A stretch of DNA of 62,453 nt from Candidatus Zixiibacteriota bacterium (GTDB lineage Bacteria > Zixibacteria > MSB-5A5 > GN15 > FEB-12). Each line of letters opens with the position of its first letter. Position 1 is the first letter of the stretch. Of the stretch, positions 106 to 62,453 are shown in pieces. The notes beneath the pieces were generated by a model. The model saw nothing but the letters and a program-made list of their open reading frames with translations, did not search any database and was not told the DNA's origin. The translations under genes and the position numbers were made by a program. Where the stretch lies: NCBI GenBank assembly GCA_024276275.1, contig JAJRXM010000082.1, forward strand, positions 1 through 62,453, in the 5' to 3' direction.

Positions 106-519
106 TTAAGAAATGTGCATCATTTTTATTGACAAGTTCCGATGTTGGACTTTTTCTCTTCTTAACTTGGTTTTCCAAGTTTTTTTTAAATAAGGTAGAG
201 AACCTTGATAGCCATTTGAACCAATAGGCTTCGGAATAATTTCTGGTATATCTTGTTGATTAAACTTAAATTCAAAACCAGTTTCTTCGTCTATAATTGT
301 ATGTTTATTATAGGCTTCCCTTCTCTTCGCTAATCCAAGCTTAACCATTGCAGCAGTTACAAATACATTATCCTTAGCTAATGCTTCGAATTTACCTAAA
401 TAATTATTACATTTTTCACAACTGATATTAGGAGAAAATTTACCTCCCAAATATTCAGGTATTAGATGAGACTTTGAGATATTGTCTTTACTTCCACACC
501 AAATACTGCAGTCTTTCAA
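106..519 (-). CDS. HNH-type zinc-finger nuclease-like protein
   Basis: Small protein of 137 residues whose N-terminal half has the layout of HNH_5-like endonuclease domains: a first CxxC near residues 4-8 (CSIWCG), the SKSHLIPEYLGG segment carrying the probable catalytic His, then ISCEKCNN as the second metal pair with the Asn. Such domains cut DNA in restriction, homing or phage-defence settings; the actual role here is unknown. The start is taken as TTG at 519 because a perfect AGGAGG sits 9 bases upstream; a longer reading from 570 would put this site inside the coding region. The C-terminal 30 residues are Lys/Arg-rich, look unconserved and overlap a terminator hairpin, so the 3' end may be worn. 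No methyltransferase or other restriction partner is nearby. Confidence 0.6.
   Translation of the reverse strand: MKDCSIWCGSKDNISKSHLIPEYLGGKFSPNISCEKCNNYLGKFEALAKDNVFVTAAMVKLGLAKRREAYNKHTIIDEETGFEFKFNQQDIPEIIPKPIGSNGYQGSLPYLKKTWKTKLRREKVQHRNLSIKMMHIS
164..187 (+). terminator. Rho-independent terminator-like hairpin
   Basis: AACTTGG (164-170), loop TTTT, CCAAGTT (175-181), then a run of T to 187 on the plus strand. It fits termination of the plus-strand gene that ends at 43. It lies inside the last 30 codons of the minus-strand HNH gene, so that gene's 3' end and this hairpin overlap. Confidence 0.6.
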
Positions 520-528
520 AACTTTATA

Positions 529-534
529 CCTCCT
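529..534 (-). promoter_or_regulatory. Shine-Dalgarno AGGAGG deciding the HNH gene start
   Basis: Minus-strand AGGAGG, nine bases before TTG at 519. It is the only strong ribosome site in the 5' part of the frame, and supports starting just before the first Cys pair. Confidence 0.6.
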
Positions 535-633
535 GTTTATTAACAAAGTTGTGTTAAAATAATATAGCAATGTGAATCTACTATATCAATCTCTATTTCA
601 AGATTTTTACGAGGGGGAGTGGAATGACATTGT

Positions 634-694
634 AAAAAGATGAGATTGCCACAGCCAACAAGTCACTAGTGTGACAAGTTGGCTTCGCAATGAC
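634..694. repeat. REP-like hairpin repeat, family 1, copy 1
   Basis: Starts with AAAAGATGAGATTGCCAC and ends with CGCAATGACA. The middle folds strongly: GCCAAC (654-659) pairs with GTTGGC (678-683) and GTCAC (662-666) with GTGAC (671-675). Related copies are at 1022, 1195 and, with a different middle, 21923. Confidence 0.8.
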
Positions 695-814
695 AGCTCT
701 ATTCTTAAAGGAGTATAAAAATTCAGGAGCAACCGACTTCTGCCCTATAATATTTCAAAATCCCTACACATCTAAAGCAAAATACATACATCCAGTAATA
801 CATGATGAACAATG

Positions 815-842
815 TTGGATTCCTGATCAAGTCGAGAATGAG
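815..842. repeat. Short repeat, family 2 (GGATTCC..GATCAAGT type)
   Basis: TTGGATTCCTGATCAAGTCG followed by AGAATGAG. A close copy is at 1160-1188; degenerate relatives are at 19598-19628 (opposite orientation) and 21786-21812. Confidence 0.65.
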
Positions 843-887
843 AGGAGTGTTATGCTATTACAAAAAGGCTACAATTAATATTAGCAC

Positions 888-905
888 AAATGGCTTAAGC
901 CATTT
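888..905. repeat. Perfect 18-base palindrome
   Basis: AAATGGCTTAAGCCATTT is fully self-complementary; a partial echo (AAAGCCATTTCG) follows about 10 bases later. Not near a gene start, so more likely part of the repeat field than an operator. Confidence 0.6.
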
Positions 906-1021
906 ATTTATAAAAAGCCATTTCGAAGTAACAGGCTGTTCCCATTGATGTTATCTTCTATAATAATGAGTCAAACACAGTTTGTAGGTTCCCTTTATAT
1001 GCGAAACGAACCCATTTATTT

Positions 1022-1080
1022 AAAAGATGAGATTACCACTGCAACAAGTCACAAGTGTGACAAGTTTCCTCGCAAAGACA
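1022..1080. repeat. REP-like hairpin repeat, family 1, copy 2
   Basis: Begins AAAAGATGAGATTACCAC and ends TCGCAAAGACA, with AAGTCAC/GTGTGACAAG arms in the middle. It differs from the copy at 1195 at only a few positions. Confidence 0.8.
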
Positions 1081-1090
1081 GAAGTATGGA

Positions 1091-1154
1091 AGGGCTGGAT
1101 CCCTGGTCAAGCCAGGGAAGGGGTTACGGTGGATGGCAGATGCTCTCGTCTGCC
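1091..1154. repeat. Paired hairpins, families 3 and 4
   Basis: CCCTGG-TCAAG-CCAGGG (1101-1117) is a perfect hairpin. GGCAGATG-CTCT-CGTCTGCC (1135-1154) is a second one with near-perfect arms. The second matches CAGACG-AGGG-CGTCTG at 19551-19566. Confidence 0.65.
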
Positions 1155-1159
1155 CTTCA

Positions 1160-1252
1160 ACTGGATTCCCGATCAAGTTGAGAATGATATTGTTAAAAGA
1201 TGAGATTACCACGGCAACAAGTCACAACTGTGACAAGTTTCCTCGCAAAGAC
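1160..1252. repeat. Family 2 repeat followed by family 1 copy 3
   Basis: CTGGATTCCCGATCAAGTTG (1160-1179) leads directly into a family 1 hairpin at 1195-1252 with GTCACAACTGTGAC at its centre. The nesting shows that the two families travel or accumulate together. Confidence 0.75.
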
Positions 1253-1278
1253 ACTATTGATAGAAATTTTTAGGCAAT

Positions 1279-3267
1279 CTATTTCGGTAAAGTCATTTGG
1301 TCGGCGAGTTGGGTGTAGTTATGCAGGCGTTCTCTGAGTTGCAAAAGTATCGTTTTGTATTGTGATGTATCTGCTTCGATGAAGATGTTATTTTCATTAC
1401 GATATAGTTTTGAGTATTGACCGACCTGTTCAAAATAAAAATAATTATTATTAATATATCCGATACGATTCCAAAGATTTATAACCGCAAACCCGGAATC
1501 ACTGTCAGGTAAGTTTAATAAGTCACGACCCCAGCTTTCAATTTCGTATTCTCCACCAAGCAGACCGACCAAAGTCGGGATGATGTCAACCTGAGAACCT
1601 ACTCGTTCAATTCTCACAGCAGAGTCTCCCAGTAGCTTTGGAGAATAGATAAGAAGAGGGATATGGAAGATATTCGGGTCAAGAGACATCTTAGAACTTT
1701 CCAATAGGGAATGGTCAGAAACAAACAGAAATATTGTGCTGTCAAAAATCGGTTTGGTACGCATAGTTTGCATAAATTGTCCGATAGCAAAATCTGCATA
1801 TATAATCCCGTTTGCTTTTTGTGAGCTATAAGAATTGCCTGTAAACCGAATTGTAGATGAATCGGGAATATCAAACGGTTCATGGTTTGAAAGTGTTAAA
1901 GTTGTTAATTGGAATGGACGGGGAAGAGTATCTACAATTTCATTTATTCTTTTAAATAGTATATGGTCCGGAACTCCCCATTTAGAAAAAGACTGGTCGT
2001 ATGTAAATGATTGTTCGCTGTAAAAAGCATCATATTTTTTTCCACGGAAAAATCCTTCCATATTGTCAAAAGCTATATCACCTCCATAGCAAAAGAGGTT
2101 ATAATATCCTTTGGAATGTAAAATTTCTGATAGCGATATAAAGGGATGTTTTGATTCATATCTTTTTAGAATAGACCGACCGGGAAGAGCAGGGTAGGAA
2201 CATAGTGTTGCGGCGAGTCCATAGTTGGTTCGGAGTCCGTTCACATAAAAATTCTGAAAAAGAATTCCTTGGTTTGCTATTGAATCAAAGTGAGGTGTTA
2301 GATTGTTTGCTGCTCCTAATACAGAGGTTCTGTGACCTGACCATCCTTCCATCATTACAACGATTATGTTAGGTTGAAAGTCAAATCTTTTGTCGCTACT
2401 AATTTTTTGCTTGAGTGAGTTATTTTTATCGGTAAATACGGTTCTGTCTCCTGAAAGCATTTGCTGTACTTTTGCAAGTGCTGTGTCGTGAGGAACAAAA
2501 CGAAATCTTTCGGATTCATCCAAGAATGAAAGACGCGGGTCATGTTCGGTTTCATTATAATTTACAACTAGAGTATAGATACCGTTGAGAGCTGATTGGT
2601 TTAGAGTATGATTGTTAGAAAAATAGGCTATACCCCAATCCATCGGGGCAAGTGATATCCGTCCTCTAATGCCACCTGCAAATAATAGCAGAAAACAGAC
2701 AAACCATATAATACGATTCTTGATACTATAAATATCTTTTTGAAGATACTTTTTTAAAATCTTAAAGTGTAGAAATACAAATAAAGCAGAGGAAACAAAC
2801 CAAATAGAAATAAACTTCCAAAAGAATCTATCTGCATTGACAAATCTATTATTGATACCCTCGTTTCCGGTATACTCATAAGCCATAAAGTTTAGACGTA
2901 TATTAAAATAGTCATAGAATATAATATCAGCTATTTGTCCTAAAAAAATAATAGGAAATATAATATAGACATATAGTGATAAGCATATCTTAACTTTCCT
3001 GTTAGTAATATCAAACCAGGGAAGTAGAAACAGCACAGGAGTTAAGAGAGCTAAGATAATTATCTGGTCAAACCGAAAACCGATGAAATATGATGTCAAA
3101 ATCTCGGTATAGGTAACAGAGTTATAAAACTGTTCAGAAAAGCTAAGATGAAACACGAGTCGGTAGAAAGCAAAAAAGAGAATAAGCAAAGCATAGAGCC
3201 ATAAAAGGTATCTATACTGTTGGGGGAGTTTAATTTTTTGAAAAAAGGAATTGCTATCGTAATTCAT
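1279..3267 (-). CDS. LTA synthase-family sulfatase (phosphoglycerol transferase-like)
   Basis: Membrane enzyme of 662 residues. Five hydrophobic segments fill about the first 210 residues; the rest is an outward-facing sulfatase-fold domain. Visible active-site elements are PNIIVVMMEGWSG near residue 300 (metal-binding Glu), GLRTNYGLAAT near 342 (the Thr that becomes phosphoglycerylated in LtaS-type enzymes) and FVSDHS near 518 (metal-binding Asp-His). Enzymes of this family move phosphoglycerol or phosphoethanolamine from a lipid to an envelope polymer or glycan. In a Gram-negative-type cell it would more likely decorate periplasmic glucans or lipopolysaccharide than make lipoteichoic acid; that is inference. 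It is the last gene of a minus-strand group after the sigma factor, anti-sigma-like and UPF0145 genes, suggesting envelope-stress control. No clear ribosome site precedes its ATG. Confidence 0.85.
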   Translation of the reverse strand: MNYDSNSFFQKIKLPQQYRYLLWLYALLILFFAFYRLVFHLSFSEQFYNSVTYTEILTSYFIGFRFDQIIILALLTPVLFLLPWFDITNRKVKICLSLYVYIIFPIIFLGQIADIIFYDYFNIRLNFMAYEYTGNEGINNRFVNADRFFWKFISIWFVSSALFVFLHFKILKKYLQKDIYSIKNRIIWFVCFLLLFAGGIRGRISLAPMDWGIAYFSNNHTLNQSALNGIYTLVVNYNETEHDPRLSFLDESERFRFVPHDTALAKVQQMLSGDRTVFTDKNNSLKQKISSDKRFDFQPNIIVVMMEGWSGHRTSVLGAANNLTPHFDSIANQGILFQNFYVNGLRTNYGLAATLCSYPALPGRSILKRYESKHPFISLSEILHSKGYYNLFCYGGDIAFDNMEGFFRGKKYDAFYSEQSFTYDQSFSKWGVPDHILFKRINEIVDTLPRPFQLTTLTLSNHEPFDIPDSSTIRFTGNSYSSQKANGIIYADFAIGQFMQTMRTKPIFDSTIFLFVSDHSLLESSKMSLDPNIFHIPLLIYSPKLLGDSAVRIERVGSQVDIIPTLVGLLGGEYEIESWGRDLLNLPDSDSGFAVINLWNRIGYINNNYFYFEQVGQYSKLYRNENNIFIEADTSQYKTILLQLRERLHNYTQLADQMTLPK

Positions 3268-49285: not shown

Positions 49286-51898
49286 CTACATTATGATAAC
49301 AAATTTACCTACAAAAGAGCCTTGGTCCCATTCTATTACATAATAATATAATCCCGAAACGACTTCCTGAGTATTACGTGTAATCATATCCCATTCAGCA
49401 CGGCTGGATTGAGGGTCTGAGGAATCGGTATTATGATCTAGTTTTTTAATCAAATCACCATCGATTGAAAATATTTTGATAGTACAAACCGGAGGTATAT
49501 TTACAAAATGAATTTGTCTGGCACGGTTATCAGGTCTATCTTTTTTTGTCCGTCCTTCTAAGCCTTCTCTCCGATAGTTTCCATCTTTTCTATACGGGTT
49601 CGGGTAGGTATAGATATTTTCATAGTTATTTTGTGCTACATCAGAAAGAGAGTATAAAGGATAAGCACTTTTAGCTCCGATAGAAAGTGAAGATTCCAAA
49701 GATGCCAAGCCGACTTCCGGAGAGCCAAAATCGAAAGCTGTGATATTTACCCACCATTCAACAGTCGGGAGTAAATTATCAATTGTAAGTTCATATTCAA
49801 AATACTTCAAATTTCCTTCTTCAGTTAACTCATCAGCTAATGCAGAATCAGGATTTAAGTTTGATGGATATGGTTGATTAGGAAACCTTTTTTTAATATC
49901 TGTATCAACACCTAACTCAGATGCATTGTAATCTTGTGCTTCAAAGTAAAATATTGAATCGGGGAACCCCGGAACTTGAAATAGGTTGTTTTTAGTCCAA
50001 AATTCAGGATTAAATGATGCTCCATAGCTTGCCCGAAGAGATTCAATAGAAAAAGGAATATCTTTTAGTACAAATCCGGGTTCAGGAAGTTTATTTACTT
50101 TGTAGATATATTTATTGTAATTTTCTCTGTCAAACGATGAAGCCAAAGAGAAGCTTGTCTTTAAGTTATCTCTACCTATATAAACTCTGTATCCTTCAAA
50201 ATCATCATTTCCGGAAAATTGATCTTTTGCATTCTCAGACCGTAACCCGTTAAATAATACTTTTATTTTACCAACGTCCGGTTCGAGTCTAAATGTCGGA
50301 GCCGGCGGAGGAGAGGCACCTTTAAAATCAGGAGTTCCGTCGCCTTCGTAAAAAGTAGTATCACATTTGTCAGGTTGATAAAAAGTAATAGTTGTGTCAA
50401 CATTATTAATAGTTGTATCAACAGTTACTAAAGTTGAGTCAAAACAGGCTACACGAAACTTGCCGAAGGTCCCGTTGTTATCAGTATCAACTCCTGGATT
50501 ATCATAAACCCATGATGCCCATCGAGAATTTGCGGCAAGAGCAGAGAAATCTAATTTATTATAAAAAATATCAGGGTTTAGAGGATCGTGAGTCAAAAAT
50601 GCTCCCGGATCATTATGGAAATCTTCACCGCCGACAACAGCAAATGTTATAGGGAGTTTTTCTTTTGGATTTATGTTAAAAGGACCAAAGGACAATAAAT
50701 AACGTGTATCAAATCCGCTTGAATAAATATCGGCATTAGATGGAGGAGGTTGGTAGTCATCATCAGTATGATCAACAGCAGTGTATAAGAGGTCGTAGTC
50801 AAATTCTTTATGTCGTAAGACATAGTATTTGTCTTCATCACTTGTCGGAGTGCCTAAACGACCGTCTCCCATTCTTCTGAAAGGGTCATTCACTTTATCT
50901 ATTTTTCTTGGACCAAAATCCTGGCTCGGAACACCATAATCAATACGCCACCAGTTAAACGAATAGTTAAGAGAATCAGACGGTGTTCGTATTACACGAG
51001 TACCCATTACGGAACGGGGAGACTTGTCATCCCAAGCACCGTCTGTAGGGTCTCCATCATTATCAGCATTGTAGGCAATATTAACGGTGTCTATGAAACC
51101 ATTACCTTCAGGGGCATCAAATTCTCTTTTGAATCCGACAATATCATCATTCCATCCTTGTGGACCGGCGTTTGTTGAATGCCAAGCATCGCCGTCGACA
51201 AATATTCCCATATACACATTTTCTAATTTATTAAATCCGATATTTTCAATCTGCAAATCAAACAATATAAAATCATCTGCATATTCATAACTCCAAGCCA
51301 TAGAACGCTGAGTTACTTTTATATTTAAAGGTTTATGATTTCTACTTGTTTGATCCGTACCGGTCAAGTTTACATCTGTTACTGTATCATAGTATACACA
51401 AATAAAATCTTCTTCTGAATAAGCATCATCAGAGTAAAATTCTGAACCTTCATCAATAGAAATGAATCGAAAACTATCATTAGGCCTCGGCCAAAATTCT
51501 CGAACATCATACCAATCTTCTGTTCCGCAAGAAACTAAAGTATCTCTGCCTACAATAGCTCCTATCCAAAGAGAACCTACCCATAAGTATACAATATCAG
51601 AGTTTTTTGGATAGATACATGATTGAACAGGTTCATCGGTAAACACATCATTTACAAGTGCGCCAAATGACCCAAACGTACCGTTGTTGGCTACCGCTAA
51701 TTGAAGATTTCCACGATTATGAACTGCGTAATATACAATAGGGTCTGACGTAGAAGAATATGATTGTCTAGACTTCCCGATACTATTGAGTTTCGGGCTT
51801 ACCTCTCTGGAGAAAAGAGAACTATTTGTCGATATTATAGAGAAAACCGTTATAAATATAACGGTATAACGGTTTTTTATTATCTTAAGCTTATTCAT
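49286..51898 (-). CDS. Large secreted protein with FlgD-like/sorting tail, paralogue 1
   Basis: Protein of 870 residues with an N-terminal signal segment (about 10-28, YTVIFITVFSIISTNSSLFS). It is rich in Asp, Asn, Tyr and Pro; PKNSDIVYLWVGSLWIGAIV and YADDFILFDLQIENIG are shared with its neighbour at 51909. The region 530-640 is of Ig or fibronectin type (PAPTFRLEPDVGKIKVLFNG). The end, YTYPNPYRKDGNYRREG then VCTIKIFSIDGDLIKKL and VSGLYYYVIEWDQGSFVGKF, resembles FlgD_ig/type A sorting tails of FCB bacteria. Function is unknown: perhaps a surface or extracellular protein. Separated from the upstream paralogue by only ten bases. Confidence 0.75.
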   Translation of the reverse strand: MNKLKIIKNRYTVIFITVFSIISTNSSLFSREVSPKLNSIGKSRQSYSSTSDPIVYYAVHNRGNLQLAVANNGTFGSFGALVNDVFTDEPVQSCIYPKNSDIVYLWVGSLWIGAIVGRDTLVSCGTEDWYDVREFWPRPNDSFRFISIDEGSEFYSDDAYSEEDFICVYYDTVTDVNLTGTDQTSRNHKPLNIKVTQRSMAWSYEYADDFILFDLQIENIGFNKLENVYMGIFVDGDAWHSTNAGPQGWNDDIVGFKREFDAPEGNGFIDTVNIAYNADNDGDPTDGAWDDKSPRSVMGTRVIRTPSDSLNYSFNWWRIDYGVPSQDFGPRKIDKVNDPFRRMGDGRLGTPTSDEDKYYVLRHKEFDYDLLYTAVDHTDDDYQPPPSNADIYSSGFDTRYLLSFGPFNINPKEKLPITFAVVGGEDFHNDPGAFLTHDPLNPDIFYNKLDFSALAANSRWASWVYDNPGVDTDNNGTFGKFRVACFDSTLVTVDTTINNVDTTITFYQPDKCDTTFYEGDGTPDFKGASPPPAPTFRLEPDVGKIKVLFNGLRSENAKDQFSGNDDFEGYRVYIGRDNLKTSFSLASSFDRENYNKYIYKVNKLPEPGFVLKDIPFSIESLRASYGASFNPEFWTKNNLFQVPGFPDSIFYFEAQDYNASELGVDTDIKKRFPNQPYPSNLNPDSALADELTEEGNLKYFEYELTIDNLLPTVEWWVNITAFDFGSPEVGLASLESSLSIGAKSAYPLYSLSDVAQNNYENIYTYPNPYRKDGNYRREGLEGRTKKDRPDNRARQIHFVNIPPVCTIKIFSIDGDLIKKLDHNTDSSDPQSSRAEWDMITRNTQEVVSGLYYYVIEWDQGSFVGKFVIIM

Positions 51899-51908
51899 TA
51901 TTTTCGCA

Positions 51909-54533
51909 TTACATGATAATGACTAATTCACCTATTTGAGTTTCTTGACCATCCGCTTCAACCGTCCAATAATAAAGTCCTGAAACTGTTAATTGAGTGT
52001 TTCGAGTAATCAAGTTCCACTCTTCATTTCCTGAAGTAGGGTCTAGCGGGTCAGAATCATGGATAATCTCTCTGACTAAATCACCGTCAATTGAGAATAT
52101 TTTGATTGTACATCTAGGAGGTAAGTTCGCAAAATTAATAATTCTAATTCTATCACGAGCTTCCTGTATACCTTTGGTTCTTTCATATCCGTCTTCTTTA
52201 TAATTACCGTCATAAAGGTATGGATTCGGATAGACGTAGACCTTTTTATTTTGTTTTAGATTTTCCTCAGCATTTGTATTCGGATATGCAATTTTAGCAT
52301 TCAGAGATTTAGATGACTCTAAAGCAGCCAATCCGGACTCAGGAGAACCGAAGTCAAAGGCAGTAACATTGATATGGTAAGGAACTGTCGGCAGTAAATT
52401 ATCAATAGTAGTTTGATATTCAAAATACTTTAAGTATCCATCTTCAGTTAGTTCGTTCGCTAGAGCAGAGTCAGGAATTAAAGTGGAAGGATATGGTTGA
52501 TTTGGATAAATTTTAGTTATAGGAGTTGTTACACCGAATTCAGATGCGTTAAAATCCTGAGCTTCAAAGTAGAAAATAGAATCACCTATAATAAGGGGAT
52601 TATTCCTTGTGTAGAAGTTAGGGTTAAATGTCGTAGTAGCGGATGTATCACCATAAAGTGCTTCCAATTCATTGATAGTAAACGGTTTTTCTAAAAGGAC
52701 AAATCCTGCATCAGGTATTCTTCTAGAATCCCAAACAAACTTATTATAATTTTCTAAATCAAAAGAAGCGTGCATTGTATAACTTGATTCACGTTCATCT
52801 CTAGCAAAATATACACGGTATCCTTCAAAATCAATTATACGTGAGAATACATCTTTTGTATTTTCAGATAAAAGTCCGTTAAATCGAACATGAACTGAAC
52901 CTAATTCAGGAGTAAGCCAGAACTTAGGAGCAGGTGGAGGAGAAGCACCTTGGAAATCAGGAGTGCCGTCACCTTCATAATATAAAGTATCACAATCACC
53001 GTCTATAAAACCCCAGAAGGTATCAATAACTATAGGGTCAAACGAGAGTGTATCGTATGCTAAAGTAGAATCAATACAGCATACTCTGAATTTACCAATA
53101 TATCCGTTACCGTCGGTATCTAAGCCGGGGTTGTCGTATACTCGAGCTGCCCATGAAGCATTAGTAGCCAATTCTGTGAAATCTAAGTTTTTATAAAAGG
53201 CTTCAGGACTATCAGGAAGATTATCTAAATTATTAACATCGGTATGGAAATTTTCACCACCTACATAAGCAAAAGATACCGGTAAACGTTCTCCCGGATT
53301 AATGTTAAATGGACCAAAAGATAATAGATAACGGGTATCAAGTCCGGTTGCCCAAGCTCTTGCAAGAAGTGGATTCGGCTTGAACCACAAGGTATCTTCA
53401 TCACCAATAGATGCAATTTTATGTTGATCATAATCAAATTCACGGTTTCTCATGAAATAGTATTTGTTAGCATCGCCTTCAGGTGTTCCTAAAGCACCGG
53501 TACCTAAGTCACGAAACTCTTCTTTTAACTTACCGACAAAAGAACGTTCACGAGGTCCAAAATCAGTTGAAGCATTACCACCTGAAATCCACCAGTTATA
53601 AGATACTTCCAGCTCTTTGGCCGGTGTTCTAATAATTCTAGTTCCTGTTACTCCCAGAGGTGAGTTTTGATCAAAGTTTCCACCGGTCGGGTCACCGTCA
53701 TTATCAGCTAACCAAGCAATATTCACTGTATCAATAAAATCACAGTCTCTAAATTTTACAGAGTCCGTTTCAATAAACCCTGAGATATCATCGAGGTAAA
53801 CATTTTGAGCAGATGTTGCTCCGACATCTCCGTCAACGTAAATACCCATATATACGTTTTCTAATTTTTGAACACCGATATTTTTGATTTCATAATCAAA
53901 AAGTATAAAATCATCAGCATAAGGATATGACCAGGCAAAAGATCTCTGGGTAATTTCAATATTAAGATGAGTATGCTGACGACCAGAGACGACATCATTT
54001 GAAATACCTAATGAACCTGTATCTCTGTACACCATAATATAATCTTCTTCAGAAACAGCTCCCTCAAATAAAGAATCAATATCAGGGAATAAAATTGAGC
54101 GTTTTCGAATTCTTCCACCAAATTCGTCTGTTTCAGGAATAAATTCCTCAAAACCGCTGTTCCATCCGTCAGCAGCAGTAGATACAAGAGTATCACGACC
54201 TACTACAGCACCAATCCAAAATGCCCCCGCAAATAAGTAATCAATACTTGATGCTTTTGGGTAAATACAAGATTGTACAGCCTGCCCTGTAATTTGATCT
54301 ATCCCGTTACCAGCTGGAAAACCGGTTCCGAAAGTACCGTTGTTGTTTAGTCCTAGCTCTATTCTACCGACACGGTGACCGACCATACCTAAAGCAGGAA
54401 GTTCGGAAGTTGATAAATTGTTTAACCGTTTTTTATCGAGTGATTCCAAAGAAGAACGGCCAAATGATGTCGAACTTGCTAATAATGAAATCATCACTAC
54501 GCATACTAAAAGAAATCGTGTTTTGTTTCTCAT
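51909..54533 (-). CDS. Large secreted protein with FlgD-like/sorting tail, paralogue 2
   Basis: Protein of 874 residues, start MRNKTRFLLVCVVMISLLAS (clear signal peptide). It aligns with the 49286 protein over its full length: for example PKASSIDYLFAGAFWIGAVV, YADDFILFDYEIKNIGVQKL, AWLADNDGDPTGGNFDQ, FEYQTTIDNLLPTVPYHINV, and an end of YPNPYLYDGNYKEDGYERTK with TIKIFSIDGDLVREI. Both contain LSFGPFNINPxExLP and DNPGxDTDxNGxxGKFRVxC. No enzyme motif is visible. The pair probably arose by tandem duplication; AAGGTG precedes the ATG. A terminator separates it from the M4 protease gene. Confidence 0.78.
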   Translation of the reverse strand: MRNKTRFLLVCVVMISLLASSTSFGRSSLESLDKKRLNNLSTSELPALGMVGHRVGRIELGLNNNGTFGTGFPAGNGIDQITGQAVQSCIYPKASSIDYLFAGAFWIGAVVGRDTLVSTAADGWNSGFEEFIPETDEFGGRIRKRSILFPDIDSLFEGAVSEEDYIMVYRDTGSLGISNDVVSGRQHTHLNIEITQRSFAWSYPYADDFILFDYEIKNIGVQKLENVYMGIYVDGDVGATSAQNVYLDDISGFIETDSVKFRDCDFIDTVNIAWLADNDGDPTGGNFDQNSPLGVTGTRIIRTPAKELEVSYNWWISGGNASTDFGPRERSFVGKLKEEFRDLGTGALGTPEGDANKYYFMRNREFDYDQHKIASIGDEDTLWFKPNPLLARAWATGLDTRYLLSFGPFNINPGERLPVSFAYVGGENFHTDVNNLDNLPDSPEAFYKNLDFTELATNASWAARVYDNPGLDTDGNGYIGKFRVCCIDSTLAYDTLSFDPIVIDTFWGFIDGDCDTLYYEGDGTPDFQGASPPPAPKFWLTPELGSVHVRFNGLLSENTKDVFSRIIDFEGYRVYFARDERESSYTMHASFDLENYNKFVWDSRRIPDAGFVLLEKPFTINELEALYGDTSATTTFNPNFYTRNNPLIIGDSIFYFEAQDFNASEFGVTTPITKIYPNQPYPSTLIPDSALANELTEDGYLKYFEYQTTIDNLLPTVPYHINVTAFDFGSPESGLAALESSKSLNAKIAYPNTNAEENLKQNKKVYVYPNPYLYDGNYKEDGYERTKGIQEARDRIRIINFANLPPRCTIKIFSIDGDLVREIIHDSDPLDPTSGNEEWNLITRNTQLTVSGLYYWTVEADGQETQIGELVIIM

Positions 54534-54724: not shown

Positions 54725-57292
54725 TTAACATCCGCAAGGCGGAGCCCCGCTATTAAACATAAACGCAACGAGTAATACTATATCAGAAATATCCACTCCC
54801 GAGCTGCAATCAATATCAGCTAGATCAATTGGAGACGGGGCAGGACCACCGTTAAAGAAATAGCCGACAAGTTGAACAAGGTCAGAAATATCTATCGTAC
54901 TGTCATTATTTACGTCGCCACGCATTAAACAACTAGATATCATTATCTTACCGGATTTAAAGGCAGCATCATATGTTAAAGCACTCCCTGAAAATTCTGC
55001 AGAATACTGGGTACTTGTGCTGTAGCCGTCAAGTGATAAAATAACAGAATCTCCCGGATTTGCAGAAGAACTTACTGTAAAATATATTTTAAGTATATCC
55101 CCTTCACCTGCAGGTAATTCAGGCGTGTTATTTATTGGGTTGGTCTCGAGTCGATATGTAAACCGCTTGTTGAAGGCATCATAATGAATAAATTCCTGAA
55201 TATCAAAATAGTCAGTTCGGCATCCGAGAGTAGAAACAGAATCAAATGAAAGTGCAAATAATCCTTGATACTCTAACGGAATGTATATTCTACCAAGAGG
55301 AGTGTTATTACGAATACGTATAGTAACCTCAACTTGCATACCTGCTTCAGTTTCAATCGAGTCAGTAGAAATTGTATCAGCGAGAGCAATAATATAATTA
55401 GGTTGAGCTAATGTTATTATATCACCGTCAGCATTAATTTGTAAGGTTACGTCAAACATTCCTGAAGAATCAAATATATGTGACGGAGACTGTAGCGTAG
55501 ATGTAGTACCGTCACCGAAATCCCAATCCCAAGTTTGTACATTTAATACCGAACTACCGGTAAGGTTAACCGAAAGTGGAACCCAACCCCAAGAAGTATC
55601 TACAGTAAAATTGATTTCCGGATTAGGAGCATATATTCCGACCGCTTCCCATGCTTTAGAAACTTGAATAGTCCATGCAAATGTAGTGTCAAGATCACTG
55701 GCGGCAGAAATAGTACCAAAAGCAGCTTCTTCGTAAGTAGAATTTTCGGTCCAGTAAAAAGCATTTGCCTGATGAACTACTTTCATCGCATTTTGCACAC
55801 CGATTCCGCCTACTGTAATACCATTGTGAACGCCACCGTCAGATAAAAGATAGAACCACTTGTTGCCAACTCCGCTATTTGTATGAACTCCACACCAGTC
55901 ATTGTTCCATTGAGGAGTACAGTTGACTACATCAAACCAATAAGGGTCTGACGTGCCATAAGTATCGGGGTCACTATTATTATGCGGGTTTGAAAGAGAT
56001 CTGAAACCGGAACTTGAAAACGAGATATTTTCTCCCATTGTCCAATCAGGTGTATCATATTGTGGATGTGCAAATTCAAATGCGGCCCCCATCATATCAG
56101 AGAAGGATTCATTTAAGGCACCGGATTCTAATTGGTAAGCTAAATTTGAGGTAAACTGAGTGACAGCATGACCCCATTCATGAGCAACAACATCGGGACT
56201 TCCTGCTAATGAATTTAAACCGCTGGAAGCACCCCAAATTACAATTCTGCTGCCATTCCAATATGCATTGTTAGTACCTTCGGCAGTATATTCAACTGTT
56301 ACACTCATCGCAGCACCGTTGTTATCAAAGCTGTTTCTACCCATTGAGGATAATAACCAGTCATAAAATAATCCGGTATATACGTGACCGTCAACCGCAG
56401 CGGCTTGTAAAGGTGATGACCAGATATTGTCAGCATCTGCCGCTATTGTTCCCGGTAGCGAACTACTGGAAATAGATGTTCTAATTGAGTTGCCTAACGG
56501 AAATTGTCCGTTATGTCCGTGTATATTATTTGAAATTTGCCTGGTATTGTCAATCAACCGATAAGTCGACCCGTCAAAATCTGTATCTATATGTGCATAG
56601 GCGTTACCCATAACGCCAAATCCGGTACCTATTTCATCAGAACTCATTATTCTATTCGCTTTATAAATTATTTCACCGGTATGAGCGTCAACAAAATACT
56701 CCCACCGCCCCATCGGAAAATCAGAAAGTAAAAACATTCTCCAACTCAGGTAAGTTTTACCTTCCCATGGAAAAACAACAAGTTCTGCTTCGTTAGTTGT
56801 ACCAGTACCAAAAAAAGACTGTAAATCAGAAATTGAATTATTTACTGCTTCAGAAGAAGATATAGTAGGAATCTGATTTATCTGTATATCTCGAACTAAT
56901 GTTCCGTTGATAGTCTTAATCTTATTTTCATTATCAAAGTGAGTAAATAATTGACCGGTTATGACGCGAACGTCATTATAAAACTGATTAAATTTAATAT
57001 GTGTTTTGCCTAAACGGTCATGTATTACTTTGTCGACAGCCAGTTCTTGTACCGGGTTCGTTAAGAATAATGAAGATTTATGAGTTTCAAAAAAACTAAA
57101 TGAAGCAGAAATCTCATTCCCCAAAGCTACCGCAGACGATAACTCTCCTTCAATATGTATTGCTCCCGATTTATTGATTTTTAAAAACTCAATTGAGGGG
57201 ACAGATTGTAATGATTGTTTGGATGAGACACTTGACGCAGCACTTTCAATCAGAATGAATGCAAAAACATAAAACAAATTACCTAATTTCAT
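54725..57292 (-). CDS. M4 (thermolysin-type) metalloprotease with PKD, cohesin-like and dockerin domains
   Basis: Secreted protease of 855 residues. The signal peptide is followed by an FTP/PepSY pro-region (about 50-190), a thermolysin-type catalytic domain (about 210-545) with HEWGH near 371, NESFSD near 393 and the second active His in WCGVHTNSGVG near 465, a PKD domain (570-640, WDWDFGDGTTS), a cohesin-fold-like domain (650-780, IPLEYQGLFALSFDSVSTLG), and two dockerin-type calcium loops at the end, DVNNDSTIDISDLVQLV and DIDCSSGVDISDIVLLV. Catalytic residues look intact. ATG 57292 is preferred because GGAGA precedes it. The C-terminal 300 residues match those of the adjacent S8 protease. 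Confidence 0.93.
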   Translation of the reverse strand: MKLGNLFYVFAFILIESAASSVSSKQSLQSVPSIEFLKINKSGAIHIEGELSSAVALGNEISASFSFFETHKSSLFLTNPVQELAVDKVIHDRLGKTHIKFNQFYNDVRVITGQLFTHFDNENKIKTINGTLVRDIQINQIPTISSSEAVNNSISDLQSFFGTGTTNEAELVVFPWEGKTYLSWRMFLLSDFPMGRWEYFVDAHTGEIIYKANRIMSSDEIGTGFGVMGNAYAHIDTDFDGSTYRLIDNTRQISNNIHGHNGQFPLGNSIRTSISSSSLPGTIAADADNIWSSPLQAAAVDGHVYTGLFYDWLLSSMGRNSFDNNGAAMSVTVEYTAEGTNNAYWNGSRIVIWGASSGLNSLAGSPDVVAHEWGHAVTQFTSNLAYQLESGALNESFSDMMGAAFEFAHPQYDTPDWTMGENISFSSSGFRSLSNPHNNSDPDTYGTSDPYWFDVVNCTPQWNNDWCGVHTNSGVGNKWFYLLSDGGVHNGITVGGIGVQNAMKVVHQANAFYWTENSTYEEAAFGTISAASDLDTTFAWTIQVSKAWEAVGIYAPNPEINFTVDTSWGWVPLSVNLTGSSVLNVQTWDWDFGDGTTSTLQSPSHIFDSSGMFDVTLQINADGDIITLAQPNYIIALADTISTDSIETEAGMQVEVTIRIRNNTPLGRIYIPLEYQGLFALSFDSVSTLGCRTDYFDIQEFIHYDAFNKRFTYRLETNPINNTPELPAGEGDILKIYFTVSSSANPGDSVILSLDGYSTSTQYSAEFSGSALTYDAAFKSGKIMISSCLMRGDVNNDSTIDISDLVQLVGYFFNGGPAPSPIDLADIDCSSGVDISDIVLLVAFMFNSGAPPCGC

Positions 57293-57325
57293 CTTCTTCT
57301 CCAAGTTAATCCTTTATTAGTTTTT

Positions 57326-59743
57326 CTAAAAACAGTTCACAGGTGCAGGTCCACTTGGATTACCAAGTGAATAAGAAACCAAATATACAATATCGGTTAT
57401 ATCTATTGTTCCGGAACCGTCAACATCGGCCTCTTCAAAACAAGGAGGAGCCGGCCCGGTAGGGTTTCCGAATGAATAACCTACAAAATAGACTATGTCT
57501 GAAATGTCAATTATGTCAGATGCGTCGCCGTCGACATTTCCTCTAAATCCGGTACAACAACCACCGATGGAAATTGCTCCGTTAGTGAATCTTACATCAT
57601 AGTTTCCGAGTAGAGAAACAACTTTCGGGACATAAGTATTACTGCCGTTTGTATAGCCGTCTGTAGCTATTACATTTATGTCACCGTTTGCAGATGATGC
57701 ACTAGTTGTAAAGTATAATTTTAAAATTGCACCGTCGCCGATAGGAAGGTCCGGAGAAGTGCCGGCATTTGAGGAAATCAATAAAAAGTTGAATCGTTTA
57801 CCCCATGAATCAAATTGATTATAATTTTGTTCTTCGAAATAATCCGTCCGACATCCAAAAGTAGAAACTGAATCCAAACTTAATAAAATATCACCACCGT
57901 ATTCAATAGGAATCTCAATAGAACGTGCCGGAACAGTATTGTTTAAAGAAATTGTAATTTCGACTGAACTATTAGGAGTAGTTACTATAGAGTCTGCTTT
58001 AATCGTATCGCCAAGTGCGACAATAAAACTTGTTTTATTCGTTTGCCGAATATCACCTCCGGCATCAATTTCAACTCCAACTGAATAAAGTCCTTGGTCA
58101 GCATAAGTATGACCGGGAGACTGTATAAATGCAGAATCACCATCCCCGAATGCCCATTTCCAAGTATCAACCGAGAGTCCTGATGATGCTGTAAACTGTA
58201 CGTTTAACGGAGCCCATCCGAAAGTTGTATCGGCAACAAAAGAAATTCCCATAATTTGGTCAACTGCTCCCTGTAAGTCAGGTAGAGGACCAATCAGCTT
58301 AGAACTTGCGGTCTGTGGAGTAGAATAGTCAGTCAAGAAAGCTCTCATTTCATTATGATCTAACACTCTTCCATGATTTGCTTTATTTACTCCCTGTAAA
58401 ATGGCACATGCACCTGTAATAATCGGTGAGGCAGAGGAAGTACCAGCAAATGATGAAGTGTAAAAATTATCATTATTACTTCCGGAGAGGTCACCATAAC
58501 CTAAGGAATAAACATCCCATGTTCCAAAAGCATGAACATCTACTCGTTGTCCGTAATTAGTGAAAGATGCCGGAGTATGAGATGAATTAGAAGCACCTAC
58601 AATAATAGCTCCCGAGAATCTAAAGTTCGGGTCAAATAGTGAACCGTATAATAAGAAGTCATCAAAATCTTCAGCACCGTTACCGGCAGCTTCGACTATT
58701 ATACGACCCATAGCTGAGCCTTGCAGTATCGCATCAAAATTTTCCTGCCAGTATTCCATACAAACATATCCGTCTTGACCTTCTCCGCTTGCATCCGGAC
58801 CTGGGGCATGTAATTCAATTAAAATAACATCTCCGGTATCAGAGTTGTTTATTGCGGTAGTTATAGCAGATGCTGTTGACATAGAACCGATTGATACAGT
58901 TCCTAAATTAACTTCAAAAGCAATACCGGTCATTCCGAAAGTATTTGAATCAGCGGCAATTTCACCTAAAACTGCTGTGCCATGGTCTAACCATCCTTGG
59001 TCATTAATTCTATTACCGGCAATGTGAAAATTATCGATTCCGCCGTGTAAATCTTCATGTGTTTGATTCCAGTTTCCTTCGATATCAACAACTTTGATAT
59101 TTTCTCCTCTACCTCCTGGAACTCCCCAAGCATAATAAGCATCTATGCCGGTTGGAGCAGCTTGCAGGTAATACTGTCCCGATTCAAAACTTGCTGTTGC
59201 CGTTTGTTGGGTAGTAGTGGATGATTTCCCTTTACCCAAAGTAGCAATATCAGGAATCGGTGGGAAATATGCAATTTCAACTAAATCTAAAGCGTTCAGG
59301 GCATTTACTTTAGCAATCTTTTCAGCACCCGTCATCGACTCATCAAGGCTAATTCTGTTATAAAGGGATAAATCGGGTAGTTGGATACCTGAGCGTTCCA
59401 TTCCGAATTTTCTCATTTCATCCAGCTTTTCTTTAGACTGCTTAAAATGTTGTTTGACAGGCAGCATTTTTCCTTTATAGGAAATAATATCATTTACATT
59501 GTTCCACTCTGAGGATGCGCGTAAAAAACCGCTTTTACTGAGTTTAGGCTGGATAGTTCCTTCTTTAAATTTTACTACAATTTGTGAAGTATTAAGATTA
59601 ACGGGTAAAGATTGGTAAAAGGGCTTGGGTAAAACTACTCTTTTCAGTTCATGTTGTTTAGCATCAGTAGTATTTGGAGTAAAGAGGGTAAATAAACCAA
59701 ATAACAAAAATGCAATATAAATCCTTGAAACTCTCTTTGGCAT
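57326..59743 (-). CDS. S8 (subtilisin-like) serine protease with PKD, cohesin-like and dockerin domains
   Basis: Secreted subtilase of 805 residues. A pro-region (about 30-170) precedes the catalytic domain: Asp in VVDIEGNWNQTHEDL near 217 (the usual DTG/DSG is DIEG), His in WLDHGTAV near 253, the oxyanion Asn in VEAAGNGAE near 346 and Ser in AGTSSASP near 435. A PKD (WKWAFGDGDSA, 505-575), a cohesin-fold-like part (580-715, IPIEYGGDILLSLDSVSTFG) and two dockerin loops (SDIIDISDIVYFVGYSF and DVDGSGTIDITDIVYLV) end the protein. The D/H/S triad seems complete. Lies 34 bases before the M4 gene, probably one operon. Confidence 0.93.
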   Translation of the reverse strand: MPKRVSRIYIAFLLFGLFTLFTPNTTDAKQHELKRVVLPKPFYQSLPVNLNTSQIVVKFKEGTIQPKLSKSGFLRASSEWNNVNDIISYKGKMLPVKQHFKQSKEKLDEMRKFGMERSGIQLPDLSLYNRISLDESMTGAEKIAKVNALNALDLVEIAYFPPIPDIATLGKGKSSTTTQQTATASFESGQYYLQAAPTGIDAYYAWGVPGGRGENIKVVDIEGNWNQTHEDLHGGIDNFHIAGNRINDQGWLDHGTAVLGEIAADSNTFGMTGIAFEVNLGTVSIGSMSTASAITTAINNSDTGDVILIELHAPGPDASGEGQDGYVCMEYWQENFDAILQGSAMGRIIVEAAGNGAEDFDDFLLYGSLFDPNFRFSGAIIVGASNSSHTPASFTNYGQRVDVHAFGTWDVYSLGYGDLSGSNNDNFYTSSFAGTSSASPIITGACAILQGVNKANHGRVLDHNEMRAFLTDYSTPQTASSKLIGPLPDLQGAVDQIMGISFVADTTFGWAPLNVQFTASSGLSVDTWKWAFGDGDSAFIQSPGHTYADQGLYSVGVEIDAGGDIRQTNKTSFIVALGDTIKADSIVTTPNSSVEITISLNNTVPARSIEIPIEYGGDILLSLDSVSTFGCRTDYFEEQNYNQFDSWGKRFNFLLISSNAGTSPDLPIGDGAILKLYFTTSASSANGDINVIATDGYTNGSNTYVPKVVSLLGNYDVRFTNGAISIGGCCTGFRGNVDGDASDIIDISDIVYFVGYSFGNPTGPAPPCFEEADVDGSGTIDITDIVYLVSYSLGNPSGPAPVNCF

Positions 59744-59848: not shown

Positions 59849-60772
59849 CTATAAATCGGGTGGAGGAGGGCCTGAATTAAACATATATGTCACTAAATAG
59901 ACTAAATCGCTTATATCTATTTGATTATTTAAATCGGTATCACAGTATAAAAGTGAACAAAAATAAGGTTCGTTGGGGAGAAACATAAAATTTATAAGAC
60001 AAATTAAGTCTGAGATATCGATATCACCGTTTCCGTCTAAATCACAATTCAGAATATCAAGAGTAATGCCGCCCTCAATAACAAATACAATAGCGGGGTC
60101 AAGCAGTCCAATAACAGTCGAATCGTAGTGAACCGCATCATAACCTAACGAAGTATCAACCACCTCAACCCAAACCGAACAAGAACTGTTAACCCATAAA
60201 GTACAATTTAAATATGTTGTATCAACGACTGTGTCCGGTACAACTCCGATAGAATTGCCGAGCGGGTCGGAAAAGTCTGTCGGTATTTCAATTGTTAATT
60301 CGGATCTAAGAGATAGCATAGTATCAGGTGCATTTGTTGTAATATATGGAATTTTTATAGCAATTCCACCTTGTTGAGGAAGTATACCGTCTTGGTTACC
60401 GGCGGGAAGAGAAAAGAGGTCAGCGATACATCGAAACCAATACTCACTTTGATCACCGGATTTATCTATTGCCTCGATATATTCGAAATTTTCAACAAGA
60501 GTTCCGGCCGTTTCATAACCTAGCCCTGAGAAATCAAATGAGATTAAATCGGGGCGGCTAGAGCGAAGTACAAACTGAAAACCAAATATCTCTGTATTAA
60601 AATTATCAAAATAGATATTGAGTAATCCTGTTTCTTCTCCGGTGGATACGAGTGTATCAGGCACTATCATAACTATTTCTAACTGGTTGTTCTGTGATTG
60701 AGTTTCGGAATTAGTTATCAGAGGCGTAATAAAGATACATAATAACAAACTAAACAAAATTTTAACCGGCAT
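59849..60772 (-). CDS. Secreted dockerin-containing protein
   Basis: Protein of 307 residues. Signal peptide MPVKILFSLLLCIFITPLI. The middle (about 30-235) is a beta-rich domain, VPDTLVSTGEETGLLNIYFD to LTIEIPTDFSDPLGNSIG, that may be cohesin-like. The end has two calcium-binding dockerin loops, CDLDGNGDIDISDLICLI and CDTDLNNQIDISDLVYLV, closing MFNSGPPPPDL. ATG 60772 is chosen for AAGGA 7 bases upstream. No catalytic motif. Presumed scaffold or binding partner for the neighbouring dockerin proteases; this is inferred from the shared tail. Shares a divergent promoter region with the TSP3 protein gene. Confidence 0.85.
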   Translation of the reverse strand: MPVKILFSLLLCIFITPLITNSETQSQNNQLEIVMIVPDTLVSTGEETGLLNIYFDNFNTEIFGFQFVLRSSRPDLISFDFSGLGYETAGTLVENFEYIEAIDKSGDQSEYWFRCIADLFSLPAGNQDGILPQQGGIAIKIPYITTNAPDTMLSLRSELTIEIPTDFSDPLGNSIGVVPDTVVDTTYLNCTLWVNSSCSVWVEVVDTSLGYDAVHYDSTVIGLLDPAIVFVIEGGITLDILNCDLDGNGDIDISDLICLINFMFLPNEPYFCSLLYCDTDLNNQIDISDLVYLVTYMFNSGPPPPDL

Positions 60773-60868
60773 CCTGATTCCTTGCAATTTACAGTTATTT
60801 TTTTGATTAGCTATTATTCTATGTATATGTTCTTTCCGTAAAATTTACATTTGATTAGTACTATCAAT

Positions 60869-61052: not shown

Positions 61053-62453
61053 ATGACATTCACTCGTGTTTTTCTATGTAAGGTAATATTAACATCTTTG
61101 CTGTTTTTCTCAACAATTACCGCCCAAATTATTACTCTTGACAATGTCAGTGGTACATATAATCCAAATGCTTTGCTGGCAGACGGGTCAACAACTCAAG
61201 TTTTTCAAATTCGGCTCAATAACAACGGTGTAGATACATACGGTGGGATTGATAACGGATTCATCATTTATTCCCCCGATGGTGCGGCATGGACTACATT
61301 TGTCGGTGATACCATAAGTCTCGGTTGGGATGTCATGTTTGACCTTGTTTTTGCAATTCAAGGTAATGAAAATGCGACAGGAAACGGTGCTGATACTGTA
61401 GGCTTTGGAGGAGCGAAACTTTCAGGCACCGGATTCCCATCAGGCTTTAATAGCGTCTCTTATAGTATTACTATCGGACCGCTAAGTACCGGTGACCATT
61501 TAAAAACGATTGTCCTAGATTCTTCTTTCTATTTGCCGACAGGTGTATGGAAATGGGCAGGTCCTAATTATATCCCAGATTGGGGAGGTCCATATAGTTT
61601 TAAAGTTATTGACCCTACTCAATGTTCCGGGGGAGACTCCGATGGTGATTTATTCCCTGCAACATGTGATAATTGTCCTGATATAAATAACCCTAACCAA
61701 TTAGATACCGACGGTGACGGAATCGGTGATGATTGCGACAACTGTCCTACTACTCCAAACCCTGACCAATTAGATTCAGACGGTGACGGAATCGGTGATG
61801 TGTGTGATGATTGTACAGATATTGACGGTGACGGATTCGGTGACCCTGGATTTCCAAATAACACCTGTCAGGAAGATAATTGTCCTGATACTCAAAACCC
61901 AAGCCAACTTGATACAGACGGTGACGGAATCGGTGATGCTTGTGATACTTGCCCGAATGACCCTGACAATGATATAGACGGTGACGGTGTTTGTGGCGAT
62001 GTTGATAATTGTCCGACCACTTCGAACTCATCTCAAATTGATTCAGACAATGACGGTATCGGTGATGACTGTGATACTTGTACGGATACCGACGGTGACG
62101 GATTTGGTGACCCGGGATTTCCGAATAATACCTGTCAGGAAGATAACTGTCCGACAATATCAAACGCAGACCAGTTAGATACTGATGGTGACGGTATCGG
62201 TGATGTTTGTGATAATTGTCCTACTGTAGCCAATCCAAATCAGGAAGATGCTGACAACGACGGTATCGGTGATGATTGTGATACCTGTACAGATACCGAC
62301 GGTGACGGATTTGGTAATCCGGGATTTCCTGCCAACACATGTCAGGAAGATAACTGTCCGACAACTTCGAATGCTGACCAGTTAGATACTGATGGGGACG
62401 GTATAGGAGACGTTTGTGATACATGCCCGAACGACCCCGACAATGATATTGAC
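61053..62453 (+). CDS. Thrombospondin type 3 repeat protein, runs off the window
   Basis: Open from ATG 61053 (AAAGGAGAG ahead of it) to the window end: 467 codons without a stop. A signal peptide ([20 protein letters not shown]) is followed by a beta-rich domain (about 25-190, [18 protein letters not shown] near the end). From about residue 195 it is thrombospondin type 3-like calcium repeats: [40 protein letters not shown] and others, with a longer cassette ([19 protein letters not shown]) recurring three times (near 61825, 62092 and 62300). Such repeats bind many Ca2+ ions and form stiff rods on secreted proteins. The end of the gene and any anchor lie outside. Divergent from the dockerin gene. 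Confidence 0.9.

Follow-up and report, generated by a model that had tools for sequence, protein, structure and literature searches.

A PKD-cohesin-dockerin tail shared by unrelated proteases of Zixibacteria, with genome-specific residues on its presumed binding faces

The M4 and S8 protease genes and their neighborhood

The window, that is the whole stretch of 62,453 nucleotides analyzed here (contig JAJRXM010000082.1 from the 3.39-Mb MAG of a Candidatus Zixiibacteriota bacterium, G000), harbors two adjacent protease genes, both on the minus strand and separated by 21 nt. One codes for an M4 (thermolysin-family) protease of 859 aa (54725..57304, TTG start; Pfam M4, M4_C, FTP and PKD), with an FTP propeptide motif (56897..57046; PF07504, aa 87-136) and a catalytic head (55634..56629; PF01447, aa 226-383, and PF02868, aa 386-557). 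The other codes for an S8 (subtilase-family) protease of 805 aa (57326..59743; Pfam S8 and PKD), the catalytic head of which lies at 58322..59065 (PF00082, aa 227-474). An earlier note on this DNA had described the two genes as same-strand neighbors with unrelated catalytic parts, and this is indeed the case: Pfam assigns M4, M4_C and FTP to one and Peptidase_S8 to the other, and BLASTP aligns only their tails.

When aligned with solved neutral proteases, the M4 head keeps the HExxH, Glu and HTNSG motifs, so that the HExxH, the downstream Glu and the catalytic His region of M4 peptidases are all present. The S8 head, aligned with subtilisins, has the His motif (HGTAV), the Ser motif (GTSSASP) and the oxyanion Asn, together with an atypical Asp motif, VVDIEG, at which the alignment register is uncertain. 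The presumed catalytic Asp region of this head (within 58322-59065) reads VVDIEGNWNQTHEDL, versus IDTG in subtilisin, and is kept in the related genome G002.

Upstream of the pair and in the same direction lies a gene for a secreted dockerin-only protein of 312 aa (59849..60787, minus strand), identified by its dockerin match; a 308-aa counterpart occupies the same place in G002 (L107). The order dockerin-only, S8, M4 is also found in G002, and adjacent S8 and M4 tails are present in G001 and G003. Downstream, two adjoining secreted paralogues of about 870 aa (49286-54533), with an 884-aa counterpart at the same place in G002 (L107), have no Pfam family above cut-off and end in a C-terminus resembling a T9SS signal. 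On the plus strand, 61053-62453 covers the first part of a secreted protein in which thrombospondin type 3 repeats are numerous, truncated by the end of the window.

A tail with both a cohesin and a dockerin

The two proteases share a C-terminal tail of about 300 residues, as the earlier note had proposed, with 44% identity over 305 aa (BLASTP, E=1e-73), a likeness far above the background of unrelated proteins. Homology is clear at the protein level; at the DNA level the tails have 52% nucleotide identity and synonymous codon agreement at chance level, and the relationship is therefore old. Further copies of the tail occur elsewhere in the same genome, and the pair is not exceptional, its tail identity (45%) corresponding to the 85th percentile of within-genome tail pairs with different heads.

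In the M4 protein the tail consists of a PKD domain (55379..55624; Pfam PKD_4, boundary from the tail alignment), a middle domain (54926..55378) and a dockerin module (54728..54925). The corresponding parts of the S8 protein are a PKD domain (58010..58246, approximate ends; Pfam PKD_4 and PKD, and alignment to the M4 tail), a middle domain with 44% identity to that of the M4 tail (57548..58009, approximate ends) and a dockerin module (57329..57547; alignments A2 and A5). The middle domain had been called cohesin-like in the note, correctly, though Pfam names no domain there in either protein; among the tails of this genome, the Pfam Cohesin family matches only that of an S8 protein on contig C85, and weakly (E=0.0015). 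An AlphaFold2 model of the tail, built from a 32-row alignment (A3), has a mean pLDDT of 93.5, and its top 50 PDB matches in Foldseek are essentially all cohesins (TM-score by target mostly 0.5-0.83). Since the nearest solved structures are cohesins, the unnamed middle domain is, by its modelled fold, a cohesin, which places socket and plug in one chain.

The Pfam dockerin family is sub-threshold in the M4 protein and absent in the S8 protein. Both tails nevertheless show a duplicated Ca-loop pattern, in that a Ca-binding loop-helix segment, its ligands at positions 1, 3, 5, 9 and 12, occurs twice. Compared with the sequences of solved structures, the tail profile matched PKD domains of collagenases, the PKD being its strongest match in the PDB, as well as cellulosomal dockerins. 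The description of the tail as anchoring is incomplete, because it carries a cohesin socket in addition to the dockerin plug. We regard the whole as probably a docking cassette borne by the enzymes themselves, the binding being predicted.

Distribution of the tail and diversity of its heads

The tail is phylum-wide. Every one of the 41 genomes in the relatives search has it, as do 99 of 132 Candidatus Zixiibacteriota genomes at E<=1e-30. In the genome of the window, the cohesin-dockerin part gave 75 matches at E<=10, most of which cover the dockerin alone. Three further proteins there carry the full tail, namely one S1-type trypsin and two additional S8 proteins, and a beta-propeller protein shares its cohesin and dockerin modules. 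The same genome also codes for an M43-type protease with TSP3 and PKD (L050, G000:C81:1-6000, 118-1829, minus strand) whose tail is in a broken frame: the cohesin-like part runs on in another frame and no dockerin is present, at a contig edge, which represents either an assembly error or a broken gene.

A census of 80 stretches of relatives, the genome of the window and named loci gave 109 distinct full-tail proteins, 108 of which have heads long enough to cluster; labels were assigned by cluster, with Pfam run on representatives. Peptidase heads of nine classes account for 96 of these 108 proteins, in a sample biased towards tails resembling peptidase tails. The heads are S8 (42), C1 (20), M43/M57-like (11), S1 (7), C10 (6), FG-GAP (6), M4 (5), S41, M66-like, beta-helix, DUF362 and NHL (2 each) and C39 (1), the M66-like and some M43-like labels being below Pfam cut-offs. 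C1, C10, C39, S41, M43/M57-like and M66-like heads are found on the tail in relatives, beyond the set of the window's own genome. Among the dockerin-only proteins of that genome, 5 of 20 scanned have a peptidase head, and no glycoside hydrolase was found in these 20 or among the tail heads. A MAG labelled Candidatus Thermoplasmatota archaeon (CSMAG_2286) also contains Zixibacteria-like dockerin proteins (L131, L136, L142 and L165), on contigs that are probably mis-binned or mislabelled.

Exchange of heads and of tail modules

The earlier note had read the pair as the product of head-swapping on a fixed cassette. Unrelated heads on one tail are indeed observed and exchange is visible, but no recent swap took place in the window pair: it is excluded by the 52% nucleotide identity, the chance-level synonymous agreement and the gene order conserved in the genus. 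Mapped on a tree of 91 tails, the head label requires 30 changes, versus a minimum of 12 and a shuffled mean of 49.8; heads and tails are therefore mostly co-inherited, with repeated exchange, and some tails of one genome with different heads are sisters. The cassette is not fixed either, as the mode of evolution differs between its three modules.

The M4 tail of G002 is a mosaic. Its PKD is 62-65% identical to the M4 PKDs of the genus versus 49-51% to the S8 PKDs, its cohesin is of the S8 type (62-63% versus 42-49%), and its dockerin has 76% identity to that of the adjacent S8 protein. Judged from these identities, module exchange between tails does occur, with G002 M4 as the clearest case. 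In the S8-neighbor tail of G001 (L183:2726-3646), the cohesin shares only 43-46% identity with the remaining S8-type cohesins in the genus, with 64-67% for the PKD, possibly reflecting another cohesin replacement.

Genome-specific residues in cohesin and dockerin

We compared the identity of tails with different heads in one genome with that obtained when genome labels were permuted within head class, with the PKD as the internal control that accounts for composition and relatedness. Significance is taken from these permutations; Mann-Whitney values, in which pairs count as independent, were set aside. Observed and expected identities were 38.7% and 37.9% for the PKD (87/2000 permutations), 31.8% and 29.4% for the cohesin (0/2000) and 54.7% and 42.9% for the dockerin (0/2000). 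Within the genus, dockerin identity was 55.3% within versus 48.0% between genomes (0/5000), and the cohesin average taken within the genus alone was not significantly raised (386/5000). The dockerin-only proteins of G001, G019 and G022 are nearest to the tail dockerins of their own genome. Where residues are identical, their codons agree at a rate close to chance in every module (dockerin: 0.434, against 0.409 expected), so recent gene conversion, with synonymous sites saturated, is not supported as the cause of the dockerin likeness. Part of the genome-specific signal could come from old homogenization instead of binding.

A per-column version of the permutation test gave no PKD column at z>=4, 6 of 151 cohesin columns (R112, Y148, D149, F151 with z=16, N152 and G213) and 17 of 66 dockerin columns. 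Five of the six cohesin columns lie at the start of beta3 and in the beta5-beta6 hairpin of the model, which reads YDAFN in the M4 tail of the window (55169..55183). This hairpin aligns with the Tyr74 hairpin of the C. thermocellum CipA cohesin, in which the 8-3-6-5 face and Tyr74 contact the dockerin. In the underlying hhalign alignment, a weak one with 15% identity for which the CipA sequence was checked against the PDB, residues 148-152 match the Tyr74 hairpin and R112 matches Asn37, a reported specificity hot spot (PMC12484212). Dockerin columns at z>=4 favor the recognition positions 10, 11, 17, 18 and 22 (PMC6780208), with 8 of the 10 columns at these positions versus 9 of the 56 others (Fisher p=1.4e-4), and their profile is alike in both dockerin repeats (r=0.88). 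Genome-specific matching is thus concentrated on the presumed binding faces of both modules.

Near-copies of whole tails are excluded as the source of this column signal: when pairs with at least 40% PKD+cohesin identity were removed, F151 (0.49 versus 0.13), Y148, D149 and all the dockerin columns were kept. Residue 151 of the cohesin is F in all seven tails of G001 and in all those of G012, W in all the tails of G003 and G019, N in 5 of 6 in G008, and small in G022. It is mixed in G009 and in the genome of the window, which has two F and three W, so the matching is not absolute.

Other cohesin proteins and the search for a scaffoldin

No multi-cohesin scaffoldin with tail-type cohesins was found in the incomplete MAGs G001, G003, G008 and G019, where high-scoring tail-type cohesins occur one per polypeptide, on tails. 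The remaining cohesin proteins fall into three groups: those with a single cohesin and a T9SS-type C-terminus, versions of about 840 aa with two cohesins in the genus, and headless cohesin-dockerin proteins of about 275-297 aa; by inspection, the genome-specific hairpin is absent from those looked at. Searched by sequence against the PDB, a T9SS-type cohesin matched no cohesin, and a fold comparison was therefore used. The presence of a gene for SprA makes a T9SS likely.

The single-cohesin proteins with a T9SS-type C-terminus form two conserved families of small proteins (L338, L341, L342, L343, L344, L345, L346 and L066:3050-3901). On contig C36 of the window's genome, three consecutive proteins of about 830-880 aa (L060, 550-8711, minus strand) all have a T9SS-type C-terminus, with two cohesin-like domains in each of the first two and a weaker cohesin match in the third, and are candidate surface receptors. 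As a scaffoldin for the tail dockerin type, the two-cohesin proteins of C36 would be poor candidates, their hairpin sequence not matching. Headless secreted proteins of about 254-297 aa, with one cohesin-like domain and one dockerin, are also conserved (L340, L347, L348, L349 and L049:3336-4100) and are possible adaptors.

Proposed assembly and alternatives

The reading that we favor, with moderate confidence and from sequence comparison, is that tail cohesins bind dockerins of the same genome in trans and thereby form scaffoldin-free protease assemblies. Each protease would carry a PKD spacer, one cohesin as socket and one dockerin as plug, and outside the cell its cohesin would bind the dockerins of other proteins of the same cell, either other tail proteases or the many dockerin-only proteins. 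Proteases of differing chemistry may in this way be joined into chains or clusters with no multi-cohesin scaffoldin. The genome-specific recognition positions and hairpin columns offer indirect support for the predicted binding; it is inferred that binding takes place, that it does so in trans and builds chains, that the assemblies attach to the cell, and that they serve to digest extracellular protein. More tentatively, plug and socket may co-evolve per genome, with proteases clipping to each other and to dozens of dockerin-only proteins in chains or networks on or near the Zixibacteria surface. Dockerins far outnumber tail cohesins, with about 70-150 matches per genome versus about 7-16, a ratio of roughly ten to one. 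Most dockerins must therefore either remain unbound or have a different partner, and a further dockerin receptor may exist.

That excess would also be expected if the dockerin were a general surface-sorting or anchoring tag with one receptor per cell, such as a small T9SS-sorted cohesin protein, while the tail cohesin bound something unrelated and the genome-specific dockerins mirrored the receptor. This alternative is unlikely, albeit the most serious one: each relative examined has small secreted one-cohesin proteins with a T9SS-type C-terminus, two-cohesin versions are present in the genus, SprA is encoded, and dockerin-only proteins have the genome-specific type too. However, the inspected hairpins of T9SS-type cohesins are alike across genomes, so these cohesins do not track the dockerin type, and the genome-specific residues on the presumed dockerin face of the tail cohesin are left unexplained.

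In every tail the cohesin and dockerin adjoin in one chain, and they might bind each other in cis, stabilizing or silencing the tail without any complex between proteins. We consider this improbable, as the last cohesin strand and the first Ca ligand are only 8 residues apart in the median, and as a cis interaction does not require the residues to be common to same-genome proteins with different heads and to cohesin-free dockerin-only proteins. It is just as improbable that the tails are stalks with no specific partner, made alike within genomes by gene conversion between repeated dockerin DNA, since, in spite of the module exchange in G002 M4 (cohesin and dockerin S8-type, PKD M4-type) and of sister tails with different heads, codon agreement is near chance in all modules and the signal, which the PKD lacks, is confined to the cohesin hairpin and the recognition positions.

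Comparison with known systems and implications

The proposed trans docking resembles the cellulosome of Clostridium thermocellum and others in its cohesin-dockerin modules, its symmetric duplicated dockerin and its species-specific recognition residues. In the cellulosome, however, non-catalytic scaffoldins carry the cohesins in tandem and the enzymes mostly have a dockerin only, whereas the Zixibacteria enzymes bear both modules and most of their heads are peptidases. Cellulosomes do contain a few known peptidases, among them an S8 protease of C. thermocellum with a double dockerin and a cysteine peptidase of R. flavefaciens (PMC12484212). The cellulosome-like complex of Candidatus Stygibacter (Cloacimonadota), also from a candidate phylum, has dockerins on S8 and C25 peptidases and a T9SS-type C-terminal domain for surface attachment, but relies on a scaffoldin of 3,755 aa in which tandem cohesins are combined with carbohydrate-binding modules, and the part of the article consulted describes no enzyme-borne cohesin-dockerin cassette (PMC8542988).

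In Clostridium perfringens, as described in PMC12997984, cohesins are found on catalytic proteins and not on classical scaffoldins, which makes it the nearest precedent for scaffold-free docking of enzyme to enzyme; these are glycoside hydrolases in few proteins, unlike a PKD-cohesin-dockerin cassette common to many peptidase families. The Limousia mucinolysome is likewise a cohesin-dockerin system that includes dockerin-bearing peptidases, but is scaffoldin-based and consists mainly of carbohydrate-active enzymes (PMC12997984). Secreted proteases such as the collagenase ColH also have a protease head followed by PKD domains, but lack a cohesin-dockerin tail in the PDB match. Enzyme-borne cohesins (C. 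perfringens) and peptidases bearing dockerins (cellulosomes, Ca. Stygibacter) are thus already known; our literature search found no paper with both "Zixibacteria" and "dockerin".

If the proposed assembly is true, the uncultured Zixibacteria would possess, for proteases, an equivalent of the cellulosome that works without a scaffoldin. They would also provide many natural cohesin-dockerin pairs in which specificity has shifted in step between close relatives, so that the evolution of docking specificity would be directly testable. The column-by-column genome test could, moreover, be used on metagenomes for other docking systems.
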